Source: a virus | DNA length: 23,640 nucleotides | Virus record (IMG/VR): IMGVR_UViG_3300038682_000072 | Location: 1-23,640 of that record | Reading direction: 5' to 3' (one strand) | In this document: in pieces, positions 6,049 through 18,614 of the stretch | How positions within the stretch are numbered: position 1 is the first letter of the stretch | Layout of the letters: each line of letters begins with the position of its first letter | Notes under the pieces: generated by a model | What the model was told of the DNA's origin: nothing | Seen by the model: only the letters and a program-made list of their open reading frames with translations | Database searches by the model: none | Translations under genes and position numbers: made by a program

Positions 6049-6591
6049 ATGCTTAGTTCAGAATATATCAAAGAATGCGTATCTTATAACAGAGAAACTG
6101 GAGATTTTTTTTGGCTCAAAAGACCGGAAAGACACTTTAAAAATAAGAAAGCAGCCACGGCGTTCAATTGCAGATTTCCAGGGAAGAGACTTTCTTCTAT
6201 AAGCCACTCTGGTTATAAGTCTACGATAATAAGCGGGCATGGGATTGAATCAAAAAAACACTACCTACATCGTTTAGCGTGGCTTTATGAGTACGGAGAG
6301 TGGCCTGATAATATTGATCATATAAATGGAAACACGAAAGACAATAGAATTTGCAATTTAAGAAGCGTTACGCATCAGGTGAATCTTAAAAACTGCAAGC
6401 TATCAAAAAATAACACATCTGGCGTAAATGGCGTTAGATTTAACAAAAATATCAACCGATGGGTAGCTAGAATATTCGACGGCGGTGTTGATATTCACTT
6501 AGGCGTTAGTGATAACCTGCTGGATGCTTGTTGTATGCGAAAGTCTGCTGAGTCAAAACAAGGGTTCCATGAAAATCACGGCATGAGGTAG
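6049..6591 (+). CDS. Free-standing HNH homing endonuclease with AP2-like DNA-binding domain
   Basis: A 180-residue protein. The HNH core lies around residues 72-105: YLHRLAWLYEYGEWP (His74), then DHINGNTKDNRICNLR with Asp90-His91, Asn93 and Asn99. This is the HNH_3 pattern. Residues about 119-160 (NTSGVNGVRFNKNINRWVARI...) match an AP2/ERF-like DNA-binding domain, the usual partner in phage homing enzymes. Such enzymes cut an allele lacking the gene and spread by recombinational repair. The SD is GAGGTG 5 nt upstream. It sits between terL and portal genes that both appear complete, so it is an intergenic insertion, not intron-encoded. Its A-rich composition and rare-looking codons (ATA, AGA) differ from the head genes, in keeping with transfer. 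Confidence 0.9.
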   Translation: MLSSEYIKECVSYNRETGDFFWLKRPERHFKNKKAATAFNCRFPGKRLSSISHSGYKSTIISGHGIESKKHYLHRLAWLYEYGEWPDNIDHINGNTKDNRICNLRSVTHQVNLKNCKLSKNNTSGVNGVRFNKNINRWVARIFDGGVDIHLGVSDNLLDACCMRKSAESKQGFHENHGMR

Positions 6592-15365: not shown

Positions 15366-16508
15366 ATGCCGTATAACGTAAACAATATTATTAATATTCA
15401 AACCCGTATCAGCCCAGCTGGTTTGGGGTTTGCTAATTTTGCCAAGGCGGTCTTATTTGCTCCTGAGTCTGAACTTCCTGTAGGCTTCAATACTGACACC
15501 TATCGTGAATATACCAGCATGGCGGCGCTTGATGATGACTTTGCATCAACAACAGAAGTCTATAAAGCGGCAAATCGCTGGCTTGGTGGTATCCCATCAT
15601 CTAGCAATCTGACTGTATATGCGGTTGATGATTTGGATGCAGATTGGGCGACCACGCTGGGTAAGGCGCGTGATCAAATCTGGTGGTTCTGGTCGTTCTT
15701 TACCGCTCCGATTTATGCTGATGTTGCACAAGTGGCTGAGATTGCAAGCTGGTGTAATACGTTTGAGTCCTATTTTATGGATTGTCAAACAGGCGCTAAC
15801 GCAACTGCTATCCGTGACCCTGGTGATGCTACTGATATTTCAACAGTGCTAACTACATCGGGTTATCGTTACGCGTCAACATTTGCACACGCTACTGACC
15901 CATACGCGGGCATCTCGCTATGTAAATGGTTTGCAGGTGTTAATTATTCTGCTGATAAGTCAACGATCACCGGAGAATATAAAAAGCTTTCTGGTGTAGC
16001 TGCTGAAGATTTGACCGATACAGAATACGGCGCAATGACTCAGGCGACTAAGAAGTGTATGTTCTATTCGGTTGTCGAGCTTCAAGGCTCTGTTGATTCA
16101 GGCCGGGTTATTAATAGCTACAGCCACTCATCATTCGGAGAGTTCATGGATGATGTTGTTAACCTTGCTGCATTCGTTAACAACCTGAAAGTAACGCTTT
16201 ATAACACAATTGCTAACAGCACAACCAAGGTTGGGCAAGATCCAGTTGGGCAGTCTCTGTTAATCGGTGCGGCACGTTCTATCTGTGAACAGTATATCGC
16301 CAATGATTATCTTGGGCCGCGCAACTATACCGACCCAGACGATGGCGTTGATAAATTTACAGCAGGCTATGAGATCCTAACAAAGCCTGAAGATATTTTA
16401 GACCTTTCTGACGCTGATCGTGATGCTCGTAAATCGGCACCATTAAGAATTCGCGTATTCCGCAAAGGCGCTATCCATGCGGCTGATATTAGCGTAGACG
16501 TATACTAA
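15366..16508 (+). CDS. Tail sheath protein, DUF3383
   Basis: A 380-residue protein with GAGGGG SD. The opening VNNIINIQTRISPAGLGFANFAKAVLF and the early block EYTSMAALDDDFASTTEVYKAANRWLGGIP are typical of DUF3383 sheath proteins. TIGQ-type repeats are absent, and VGQSLLIGAARSICEQYIANDYLGPRNYTDPDDG closes the core. Sheath subunits contract to drive the tube through the envelope, so this gene establishes the contractile tail. At 380 residues it is a compact version of the sheath. The following tube gene is 12 nt downstream. Confidence 0.9.
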   Translation: MPYNVNNIINIQTRISPAGLGFANFAKAVLFAPESELPVGFNTDTYREYTSMAALDDDFASTTEVYKAANRWLGGIPSSSNLTVYAVDDLDADWATTLGKARDQIWWFWSFFTAPIYADVAQVAEIASWCNTFESYFMDCQTGANATAIRDPGDATDISTVLTTSGYRYASTFAHATDPYAGISLCKWFAGVNYSADKSTITGEYKKLSGVAAEDLTDTEYGAMTQATKKCMFYSVVELQGSVDSGRVINSYSHSSFGEFMDDVVNLAAFVNNLKVTLYNTIANSTTKVGQDPVGQSLLIGAARSICEQYIANDYLGPRNYTDPDDGVDKFTAGYEILTKPEDILDLSDADRDARKSAPLRIRVFRKGAIHAADISVDVY

Positions 16509-16520
16509 GGAGTTAAAAAA

Positions 16521-16934
16521 ATGTCGGTGAACGATTTTTCTACAGATTTGCACGTTGTAACAGTAAACGGGCGTATTATTAATGATTGGGGCGAAGCTAC
16601 AACACCATGCACAGACGACCCTATTGATCAAAAGTCTACGCTCCGGCGTGGACAGGGCGGCAATGCTGTTCGGCTTGATCGTAAGAACCCTGGTCGTCGT
16701 GTGACGCTTAACCTTAACCCTGGTAGCTCTGATTCTGCATTCATGCAGGGGCTATTTAACTCATCTGCAAACATCACTATTAACATCCAGCAGATTGGTA
16801 CTCTTGAGGTATCAACCGGCACAGAGGGTGTTATTGTAAACGATGGGCAAGTAGGCCGAGCCGGTCAGACTATTACTGATGACCAGTACATGATCGAGTT
16901 CAACCTATGGACTGCATTAAAAGGCGGTGAATAA
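16521..16934 (+). CDS. Tail tube protein, DUF3277
   Basis: A 137-residue protein preceded by TAAGGAG, the best SD in the window, which fits a protein needed in many copies. MSVNDFSTDLHVVTVNGRIINDWGE resembles the opening of DUF3277 tube proteins. The central GGNAVRLDRKNPGRRVTLNLNPGSSDSAFMQGLFN and the closing QTITDDQYMIEFNLWTALKGG are family blocks. It polymerises into hexameric rings inside the sheath. TAATG overlap with the chaperone gene. Confidence 0.9.
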   Translation: MSVNDFSTDLHVVTVNGRIINDWGEATTPCTDDPIDQKSTLRRGQGGNAVRLDRKNPGRRVTLNLNPGSSDSAFMQGLFNSSANITINIQQIGTLEVSTGTEGVIVNDGQVGRAGQTITDDQYMIEFNLWTALKGGE

Positions 16935-17353
16935 TGTATATTGAATCAGTCACAGTGGGCAGTGCTGTATTCAATGTCGTTCAAGCATCAGCAGTTGATC
17001 AAAAGTCTCTGCTGATGTTGTTAGGTGGCAAGATTGCAATGCACAGCGCAGCGGGGAAGGTTGAAGAAATCAATACCGTTATGCTTAAAGGTGCATTGCT
17101 AACCCTGCCAGAGGATACGCTTGATAAAGTTGCTGGGATCGTTCTTTACAAAACAGTGATGAATGGATCTGATCAACTAGTTACTGTCGAGAACTTCCAA
17201 GGCAATATTAACGACTATTTCACACTGATAGCCGAAGCGGTGAAGGTGAATCTGCAAGATTTTTTTACTTGGCTGGACAGCGAAAACAAAGCCGTCCGGG
17301 ATCAAGTGACAAAGAGCAAGCTGGAAGCAATGTCAGGGAATCAAGCGCTGTAG
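16934..17353 (+). CDS. Tail assembly chaperone, short (G-like) product
   Basis: A 139-residue protein between tube and tape-measure genes, the canonical chaperone position. It is largely helical with HSAAGKVEEINTVMLKGALLTLPEDTLDKVAGIVLYKTVM in the centre, and a C-terminal NINDYFTLIAEAVKVNLQDFFTWLDSE. Its 3' part is overlapped in the -1 frame by a second ORF. A T-run slippery site at codons 110-111 links them. As in lambda G/GT, the short form and a longer frameshift form probably coat the tape measure while the tube assembles. Confidence 0.85.
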   Translation: MYIESVTVGSAVFNVVQASAVDQKSLLMLLGGKIAMHSAAGKVEEINTVMLKGALLTLPEDTLDKVAGIVLYKTVMNGSDQLVTVENFQGNINDYFTLIAEAVKVNLQDFFTWLDSENKAVRDQVTKSKLEAMSGNQAL

Positions 17354-17505
17354 ATTGGCAATTGATGCGACCATGTGTAGGAGTTGAAGGTGTTTGCCAT
17401 CCGCTTTGCGCTTGGTCAGACCTTGTAGACGGAACCTACAGCCTTGCAGACGTAGAGCGGTTTAATCAAACGATCTACGAAATAGTAAAAGCAGCAGCCC
17501 CTTAA
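16934..17505 (+). CDS. Tail assembly chaperone, long (GT-like) -1 frameshift product
   Basis: Ribosomes slipping back one base on T TTT TTT (17260-17266) after Phe111 enter a frame open from 17212 to the stop at 17503-17505. The product would be 190 residues: 111 from the first frame and 79 new ones. The new part contains AVDWQLMRPCVGVEG and LVDGTYSLADVERFNQTIYEIVKAA. This fits the second tail chaperone domain seen downstream of similar genes ('W...P.....l.dG...L.dv..mN..l'). No credible independent start precedes it; TTG 17269 has no SD. Its stop lies in the loop of the terminator at 17495-17518. The frame relation is seen; frameshift efficiency cannot be judged. Confidence 0.8.
17260..17299 (+). 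promoter_or_regulatory. Programmed -1 frameshift signal: slippery heptamer and downstream hairpin
   Basis: The 0-frame codons are GAT TTT TTT ACT, giving the heptamer T TTT TTT (17260-17266). Six nucleotides later, CTGGAC (17273-17278) can pair with GTCCGG (17294-17299), with one G-U pair and a 15-nt loop. The spacing is in the range usual for stimulatory structures. The heptamer lies inside the 17212-17353 overlap of the two frames, as required. Confidence 0.78.
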
Positions 17506-17567: not shown

Positions 17568-18614
17568 ATGGCTGAAACAATACAAAACTTTCTTGTCGGG
17601 ATCGGATACGACTACGATGAGAAAGGACAAAATCAAATTGCATCAGGCATTGACGGTCTAGCATCCAAGGCGTTAATGCTTGGCTCCGTTGTCGCTGGAG
17701 CATTTGGTATTAGTGCTTTAACGGCTGATTTTGCCAACGCCACGGACACGCTAGGTAAGTTTAGCGAAACATTTGATATGACTGCCAATGATGTTGCCGG
17801 GCTAGGTAGAGCAATACAGATTGAAGGCGGTACTTTTGAATCTATGGTTTCTCAGCTTGAGGCTATAGAGCGCCTACGAGCAATGCGCCCTGATGAGATA
17901 GGCGGATTCTTTGCTGATGCTGGAATAGTTGGATTTGATCCTAGCGTTATATTAAACGCGAAGAACGCTACAGAAGCGTATATCGCTCTAGGCGATGTGA
18001 TGAAGCGAGCATCACAAGACAGGCGGTTACAAATCGCTGATGTTCTTGGTCTTGATCCTGCCTCCATTAGATTATTATCACGCGGCACTGATGGTGTTAG
18101 AAGCCTTGTTGAGAAAATGAAAGCTGCAAGACCTGTTACTGATGAGATGACAAAAAGCTCTGCTGCATTTAACGACCAGCTATTCATGATGAAAACCAAT
18201 ATAGGCGGTGTTTCTGATGCTGTTGCCAATGAATTACTACCAAGTCTTACTGAGTCAATGGGCGAGTTTAATGAATTCATGGCCGAGAGTGACGGGCCGT
18301 CAATGGCAGTTAATACAATTAAATCAATAAAGGCAGCAGCATCCCCAATAGGCAGCGTAATTGACGCTCAGGGATCAGTCCTTAATTTCCTGTTTAACGA
18401 CCTGCCAGAAAAAGTTGCTGATGCAGTAAAAGAGCAAAGATCTATATTTACTAAATCATTTGGAGGAACTGGAGTTTCTCCATCTTCTGGAGCAAGCACA
18501 ATACAAATAAATATGATGCTAGACGGGCAAGTACTTGATCAAAGAATAATTAATGTTAACGAGCAGATGAATCAGCAGGCTATTGATGATCTGTCTACAT
18601 CAACAGGTGGATAA
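17568..18614 (+). CDS. Tail tape-measure protein, short
   Basis: A 348-residue protein immediately after the chaperones. The N-terminus IQNFLVGIGYDYDEKGQNQIASGIDGL, with a hydrophobic stretch at about 30-56 (ASKALMLGSVVAGAFGISALTADF), and the repeated helical segments are those of tape-measure proteins. 'T..LG.fSe.f.mt..dv..lgrAi..eGGt' is a common early pattern in this group. The protein sets tail length and is ejected with DNA. At 0.15 nm per residue, 348 residues would span only about 52 nm, shorter than most myophage tails. The C-terminal 50 residues (SGASTIQINMMLDGQVLDQRIINVNEQM) form a separate beta segment. The SD (AGGGG) is good. Confidence 0.82.
   Translation: MAETIQNFLVGIGYDYDEKGQNQIASGIDGLASKALMLGSVVAGAFGISALTADFANATDTLGKFSETFDMTANDVAGLGRAIQIEGGTFESMVSQLEAIERLRAMRPDEIGGFFADAGIVGFDPSVILNAKNATEAYIALGDVMKRASQDRRLQIADVLGLDPASIRLLSRGTDGVRSLVEKMKAARPVTDEMTKSSAAFNDQLFMMKTNIGGVSDAVANELLPSLTESMGEFNEFMAESDGPSMAVNTIKSIKAAASPIGSVIDAQGSVLNFLFNDLPEKVADAVKEQRSIFTKSFGGTGVSPSSGASTIQINMMLDGQVLDQRIINVNEQMNQQAIDDLSTSTGG

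Follow-up and report, generated by a model that had tools for sequence, protein, structure and literature searches.

Does the tail assembly chaperone gene of this virus encode one protein or two? A reading frame for a 139-aa protein is overlapped at its 3' end by a second frame, and the first-pass annotation had taken a run of seven Ts inside the overlap for a site of -1 programmed frameshifting of the G/GT kind. The window, by which we mean the whole stretch of DNA analysed, is a complete virus record of 23,640 bases, and such a record may itself be a fragment of a genome. It carries a contractile-tail gene set (sheath, tube-like, chaperone, tape measure-like and Dit-like genes), and the genes around the locus are as follows:

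15366..16508, + strand: tail sheath (PHROG 205, 5.7e-73; DUF3383).
16521..16934, + strand: tail tube / virion structural protein (PHROG 280, 1.2e-22, listed as virion structural protein).
16934..17353, + strand: tail assembly chaperone, short form, 139 aa, 0 frame (by Pfam, PHROG and model).
17260..17505, + strand: -1 extension, 79 residues after the slip (PHROG 4364; pN/pS 0.165).
17568..18614, + strand: tape measure-like protein, 348 aa (PHROG 12278, 3.9e-82, 'tail fiber protein/ lysozyme'; PHROG 2276, 5.9e-24, tail length tape measure).

In relatives the gene at 16521..16934 carries the annotation tail tube, and the order sheath, tube, chaperone, extension, tape measure is the place in which a G/GT gene is expected. 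Of the 63 phage records that match the DNA of the window, the best 20 include phiPLPE of Iodobacter, at 70.5% over 25% of the query, and one Erwinia phage; phages of Klebsiella, Escherichia, Alcaligenes and Pantoea match at about 68-71% over 13-19%. Elsewhere in the window, the open reading frame at 6049-6591, between terminase-like and portal-like genes, may encode an HNH homing endonuclease (by its motifs), and that at 1586-2353 encodes what we take to be a member of the PAPS reductase / adenine nucleotide alpha hydrolase family (by its motif).

The short product falls into a chaperone family. It matches Pfam PF21822, Phage_TAC_15, at 30.8 bits (cut-off 22), PHROG 1613 'tail assembly chaperone' at 2e-6 and PHROG 9141, of unknown function, at 8.8e-36; Phage_TAC_15 is matched at E 0.001 by 10 of 48 aligned sequences, that of the window included. 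An AlphaFold model of the protein has a pLDDT of 90.8. A Foldseek search with this model returned nothing below E 0.001, the HK97 tail assembly chaperone 2ob9 standing at E 2.2; when the Foldseek candidates were compared again, 2ob9 came third (Z 4.0, rmsd 3.7, 73 aligned), a match consistent with the HK97 chaperone fold, if not conclusive. First in that comparison, with a Z of 8.0, was V. cholerae 5ir0, which is ORF19 of a PICI-like element and has no known function; possibly it is a chaperone-like protein encoded by a phage satellite, though a Z of this level can also reflect a common arrangement. By tblastn, the 0-frame part matched 29 of 50,697 phage records at E 0.001, and 19 of these 29 are also among the listed matches of the searches made with the extension.

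The overlap itself contains the following:

17260..17266, + strand: slippery heptamer T_TTT_TTT in the -1 slip phase (by sequence, with X_XXY_YYZ at the aligned site in 58 of 65 clusters of relatives).
17351..17353, + strand: 0-frame stop TAG, read in the -1 frame as GTA GAT TGG (V-D-W), with which the conserved domain begins.

No stop interrupts the -1 frame from 17212 until 17505, and the heptamer at 17260-17266 is the sole X_XXY_YYZ of the slip phase in the overlap (17212-17353). Read in the 0 frame as GAT TTT TTT ACT, it would leave both Phe tRNAs paired after a back-slip of one base, and the fusion computed from such a slip is 190 aa long, of which 79 aa are new; the phase, the overlap and the 79 residues thus agree with what had been proposed. 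However, X_XXY_YYZ heptamers number 87 across the window, and simple arithmetic gives about 0.17 expected by chance in the slip phase of the overlap. A heptamer in the right phase is not rare by itself, so conservation had to decide.

When the 0-frame protein was searched against viral contigs only one relative came up, and the survey was therefore run with the extension. It comprised 22 phage-record loci, 80 viral contigs (the best 80 of 164 confirmed), 13 bacterial genome loci and the window, 116 in all; L043, whose chaperone is truncated, was excluded, so that 115 loci were scored, and L002, which is the same contig as L025, was counted once. In 115 of 115 loci the extension lies in the -1 frame of a chaperone-sized (or contig-truncated) open reading frame with a matching C-terminal stretch, both other frames having been compared for the 80 viral contigs. 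Fused frames, which the first-pass annotation had named among the findings that would speak against it, occurred in none of the 115; apart from the window, L003 and L006, every locus had been retrieved through its extension, and a lineage that lost the extension could not have come to light.

Clustering at 90% nucleotide identity reduced the 115 loci to 65 clusters, of which 58 have X_XXY_YYZ at the aligned site (30 U_UUU_UUU, 21 U_UUU_UUC, 6 C_CCU_UUY and 1 A_AAU_UUU). The slip pattern is kept where the bases change; the C_CCU_UUY clusters consist of ZF40 and bacterial genome loci, and Iodobacter phage phiPLPE has T_TTT_TTT like the window. For L012 and L014 the first of two overlapping heptamers was used, and where one overlap held several heptamers the T- or C-type one was chosen. 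Seven clusters (6 U_UUU_UCN and 1 U_UUU_ACA) are without the full heptamer and keep only U_UUU, with re-pairing for the first tRNA only; the site in these seven was picked by hand from the shared GGGGATTTT context and not by an automatic rule. In L029, L030, L033, L035, L042, L046-L048, L070 and L072 the second Phe codon has become Ser (GGG GAT TTT TCN), which leaves U_UUU only, and the heptamer-bearing tree neighbour of this lineage is L041. All 58 heptamers fit H_HHU_UUY, listed by Sharma et al. among efficient E. coli motifs (PMC4066793), and the opinion that an all-U site is less usual is not upheld, since U_UUU_UUY falls in that class and phage P2 is described as using TTTTTTG (PMC3091744).

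Conservation of the heptamer in homologues had been suggested as a check, and it was compared with what the protein alone would demand. Under a null built from the codon usage of each locus, the match of the P-site codon and of the third base ahead of it in the 58 clusters has a log10 p of -44.6, a figure that assumes independent clusters, an assumption that does not hold completely. Among 72 control Phe-Phe pairs from other places in these loci, 9 have xxT TTT. Judged by codon usage, the slip site is conserved more closely than the encoded amino acids require.

The product of the -1 frame also bears the marks of selection. The extension consists of a basic linker followed by a conserved [DN]W..(M)RPC.G...CPPLC.W..L.DG domain. 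It matches PHROG 4364 at 1.7e-13, a PHROG of unknown function that also holds DUF6889 proteins and is matched by 12 of 13 aligned extensions at E <= 0.01; by tblastn, the extension found 342 of 50,697 phage records at E 0.01. In the -1 frame its pN/pS is 0.165, while the same bases give 1.48 and 2.16 when read in the two remaining frames, which indicates purifying selection; the values cover 41 codons beginning at the conserved Asp/Asn-Trp, which in most loci stands at the 0-frame stop or a little beyond it, and come from 435 pairs of 70-97% identity that overlap in sequence, with L017 and L022 left out. Conservation of the -1 peptide begins right after the slip site, where the 0 frame still runs alongside, and opens with a basic patch whose R8 is nearly invariant. 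The AlphaFold model of the extension is poor (pLDDT 57), a sequence search against solved structures gave no credible match, and Pfam and PHROG family searches on the extension named no T domain.

Could the -1 frame instead be a separate small gene with its own start? A separate CDS ending at the extension stop is present in 9 of the 21 annotated records fetched, and the window offers TTG at 17269, TTG at 17362 and ATG at 17365, so that the first-pass statement that the frame has no start of its own was too strong as worded; what stands of it is that a simple scan found no SD-like sequence at any of the three. However, when the frame is followed from where it opens until 30 nt inside the conserved part, ATG, GTG and TTG are all lacking in 6 of 65 clusters and ATG is lacking in 11, and only 6 have any start with a nearby SD-like sequence; in 15 of the 65 a -1 stop lies immediately 5' of the heptamer. 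The scarcity of credible starts, this stop and the conservation of the peptide from just past the slip site together argue against a separate gene, as does a slip site kept beyond coding need, and we regard such a gene as very unlikely.

Frameshifting by ribosomes would be helped by stimulatory elements, and two candidates flank the heptamer:

17268..17306, + strand: putative stimulatory hairpin (by folding, synonymous null and arm-swap covariation).
17244..17249, + strand: SD-like AGGTGA, possible second stimulator, ending 10 nt 5' of the heptamer and the same in L025.

The first-pass annotation had pointed out that CTGGAC (17273-17278) can pair with GTCCGG (17294-17299) after a 6-nt spacer. 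To this core are added inner GC pairs (17280-17281/17291-17292) and outer pairs (17268-17272/17302-17306), the outer ones starting one base past the heptamer in the 40-nt fold. For the 40 nt 3' of the heptamer the folding energy is -14 kcal/mol (z -2.97; equalled or bettered by 1 of 200 dinucleotide shuffles), and over 45 nt the hairpin of the window also beats synonymous-codon resampling (z -2.57; 3 of 200 as good). Across the 65 clusters the mean 45-nt folding energy is -13.65 kcal/mol directly 3' of the heptamer, compared with -9.7 and -8.3 at 10 nt to either side, and in both frames this trough stands out most among the positions compared with synonymous resampling (mean z -0.94, 49% below -1); 19 of the 65 clusters fold no better than the mean of the synonymous null (z above 0). 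A second trough of -13.7 kcal/mol lies about 80 nt further on, in the coding region of the extension (mean z -0.8 under a synonymous null for the -1 frame, 40% below -1); it falls about 85-130 nt past the heptamer in relatives, corresponding to about 17353-17400 in the window, with a modest arm-swap gain at offset 90.

RNAalifold, applied to 32 aligned downstream sequences (a subset of the 65 clusters chosen for similarity), found no consensus structure, which we attribute to stem register and loop length varying between lineages. An arm-swap test was therefore used instead, with position controls added later. In the 65 clusters, own arms fold at -14.74 and swapped arms at -11.8, a gain of 2.94 kcal/mol reached in 0 of 500 permutations, although this permutation is poorly calibrated, as 2 of 12 control positions (gains 1.0-1.2 kcal/mol) also gave 0 of 500 and one gave 1 of 500. 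With one member from each of 27 broader groups the energies are -13.63 vs -10.57 (gain 3.03 kcal/mol, 0 of 500). The gain at the 12 control positions reaches at most 1.22 in the 65 clusters and 1.20 in the 27 groups, and the hairpin site thus has the largest gain of the 13 positions. By class, the permutations as good number 0 of 500 for U_UUU_UUC, 4 for bare U_UUU, 7 for U_UUU_UUU and 79 for C_CCU_UUY. The arms of the proposed hairpin co-vary in relatives more than those at the 12 control positions.

The SD-like signal is weaker. In the window, 9 of 100 synonymous resamplings were at least as strong as AGGTGA, and overall z is below -1 in 20 of 65 clusters with a median z of 0. A peak at a spacing of 7-10 in the mean profile was set aside, as it is confounded by conserved Trp-Asn codons and the median z under the synonymous null is 0.

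These data also bear on whether it is RNA polymerase that slips on the T run, the long product then being made from slipped mRNA. The window does have seven Ts, and UUUUUUU may cause such slippage according to PMC4066793. However, the run is down to six Ts (T_TTT_TTC) in 21 of 65 clusters and is replaced by C_CCT_TTY in 6 and by A_AAT_TTT in 1, so that what these clusters keep is the pattern for tandem slippage and not a homopolymer; a covarying hairpin is likewise in keeping with ribosomal slippage, even if by itself it is compatible with the transcriptional kind as well. We consider slippage by the polymerase highly improbable. The notion that a sequencing error or gene decay split one long open reading frame has in its favour that homopolymers are error-prone and that the window is an assembled contig, but with the same -1 arrangement in 115 of 115 loci, including isolate phage genomes and bacterial genome contigs, and with purifying selection on the extension, its probability is practically negligible.

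Ribosomal -1 frameshifting at 17260-17266 is thus, on comparison of sequences, very probable, and the -1 arrangement, the site, the selected extension and the gene order all agree with the G/GT-type chaperone proposed at the outset. We envisage two tail assembly chaperones made from a single start codon. Most ribosomes would translate 16934-17353 and give the 139-aa short form. A minority, stalled by the downstream hairpin and perhaps also by the upstream AGGTGA, would slip by -1 with both tRNA-Phe on U_UUU_UUU and continue to 17505, giving the 190-aa form. If lambda gpG/gpGT is taken as the model, the shared part may coat the tape measure protein, and the rare long form, through its basic linker and small C-terminal domain, may recruit tube subunits; the tube would then polymerise around the tape measure, after which both chaperone forms would leave. 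That the long form works like gpGT is likely.

The stimulators are unevenly distributed over the slip classes. A hairpin (z below -1) is found in 18 of 21 U_UUU_UUC clusters vs 6 of 30 U_UUU_UUU clusters (Mann-Whitney p 5.6e-6), the Klebsiella-type U_UUU_UUC clusters L005 and L024 being without one, and in 5 of the 7 clusters without the full heptamer; tetramer sites such as U_UU.Y are stated to need a strong stimulator (PMC4066793). SD-like elements occur in 4 of 6 C_CCU_UUY and 11 of 30 U_UUU_UUU clusters. Neither stimulator is present in 22 of 65 clusters, 16 of them U_UUU_UUU (16 of the 30). A poorly resolved tree of the upstream protein shows at least 12 changes of slip class. The association of slip base with hairpin fails a tree-aware test, in which 6 independent pairs gave on average 3.4 in the same direction and 0.1 in the opposite one (median p 0.25), and it is suggestive only.

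Does the same arrangement extend beyond the survey? The extension of the window scores 18.7 bits against Pfam DUF6889 (PF21829), under the cut-off of 23.9, and, of 13 aligned extensions, 11 match DUF6889 at E <= 0.1, the best of them at 1.7e-5. In all four DUF6889 loci above the Pfam cut-off (L118, L119, L121 and L122) the domain is the -1 extension of a chaperone-sized open reading frame, with slip sites of AAATTTTTT type; the overlaps have AAATTTT followed by TTTTTTG (three loci) or by TTTTTTT (L118). L120, whose DUF6889 match is below cut-off, has the same -1 arrangement with AAATTTT alone. In L118 and L119, the two that were scanned, the chaperone frame matches Phage_TAC_15 and PHROG 1688 'tail assembly chaperone'. 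Their DUF6889 proteins match PHROG 4364, as does the window extension; the neighbours in L118 are a tube-like gene (PHROG 280) and a tape measure gene (PHROG 2276). By their common PHROG 4364, DUF6889 and the window extension belong to one family. The DUF6889 set is small and class-wide sampling sparse (2 of 369 genomes match, 1 over cut-off; 4 of 394 in the order), and one of the three handle genomes had no DUF6889.

Taken jointly, the comparisons could mean that an orthologous site was kept through changes of slip base with the stimulator co-changing, that the ratio of the chaperones and not the signal was selected, and that PHROG 4364 and DUF6889 are a frameshift-encoded C-terminal domain of contractile-tail chaperones; we hold the case for and against this composite picture to be evenly balanced.

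The tail of lambda is long and non-contractile, unlike the contractile set of the window phage, and that of P2 is contractile. As far as sequence can tell, the device is of the ordinary lambda G/GT type, a known kind, and is well supported by comparison. The lambda gpG/gpGT -1 frameshift is spread among long-tailed phages, and the window shares with it a single chaperone gene in the neighbourhood of those for tube and tape measure and, as we infer, short and -1-extended products with low-level slippage (PMC5009743); the site in the window differs in being U_UUU_UUU with a hairpin. P2 E/E+E' resembles the window in a -1 shift at a U-run heptamer, TTTTTTG, but is reported without a downstream hairpin, whereas one is present in the window and in 18 of 21 U_UUU_UUC clusters by z < -1 (PMC3091744). 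In Vandenendeviridae and Andersonviridae the chaperone frameshift likewise has a U-rich site and an extension for which hypothetical protein is the routine annotation; these are other families, however, and their GTTTTT motif is not a full heptamer and lies near the U_UUU_UCN subset found here in 6 of 65 clusters (PMC12846349). The slippery motifs of PRFect include one named 'five' (PMC10885494), and the P. anserina U_UUU_UCC site is a precedent for our U_UUU_UCC subset (PMC5009743). In the literature searched, outside which most subscription papers lie, we found PF21822, PF21829 and PHROG 4364 named in no paper and, in the portions available, no report of a frameshift in the chaperone family of the window; the available portions of PMC7556043 and PMC10269795 do not mention one.

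Finally, we examined how public records treat the locus. Of 22 phage records one is unannotated; among the other 21, none joins the two frames, 9 have a separate short CDS and 12 have no CDS ending at the extension stop, much as the first-pass annotation had predicted in saying that automatic annotation would miss the long product or call a false gene. In phage vB_KsaM-C1 the extension (L004 1576-1728; ON807605.1 43733-43885) is called 'tetracycline resistance leader peptide' and carries the remark 'Anti-defence mechanism protein'; its frame and homology mark this label as a misannotation.

The public records checked for this phage group thus omit or mislabel the long product. If the frameshift reading is true, PHROG 4364 and DUF6889, both of unknown function, would be explained as the missing half of a tail chaperone. 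Slip sites and stimulators that vary at one orthologous position would also provide a natural series for testing how ribosomes and phages set the ratio of the two products.
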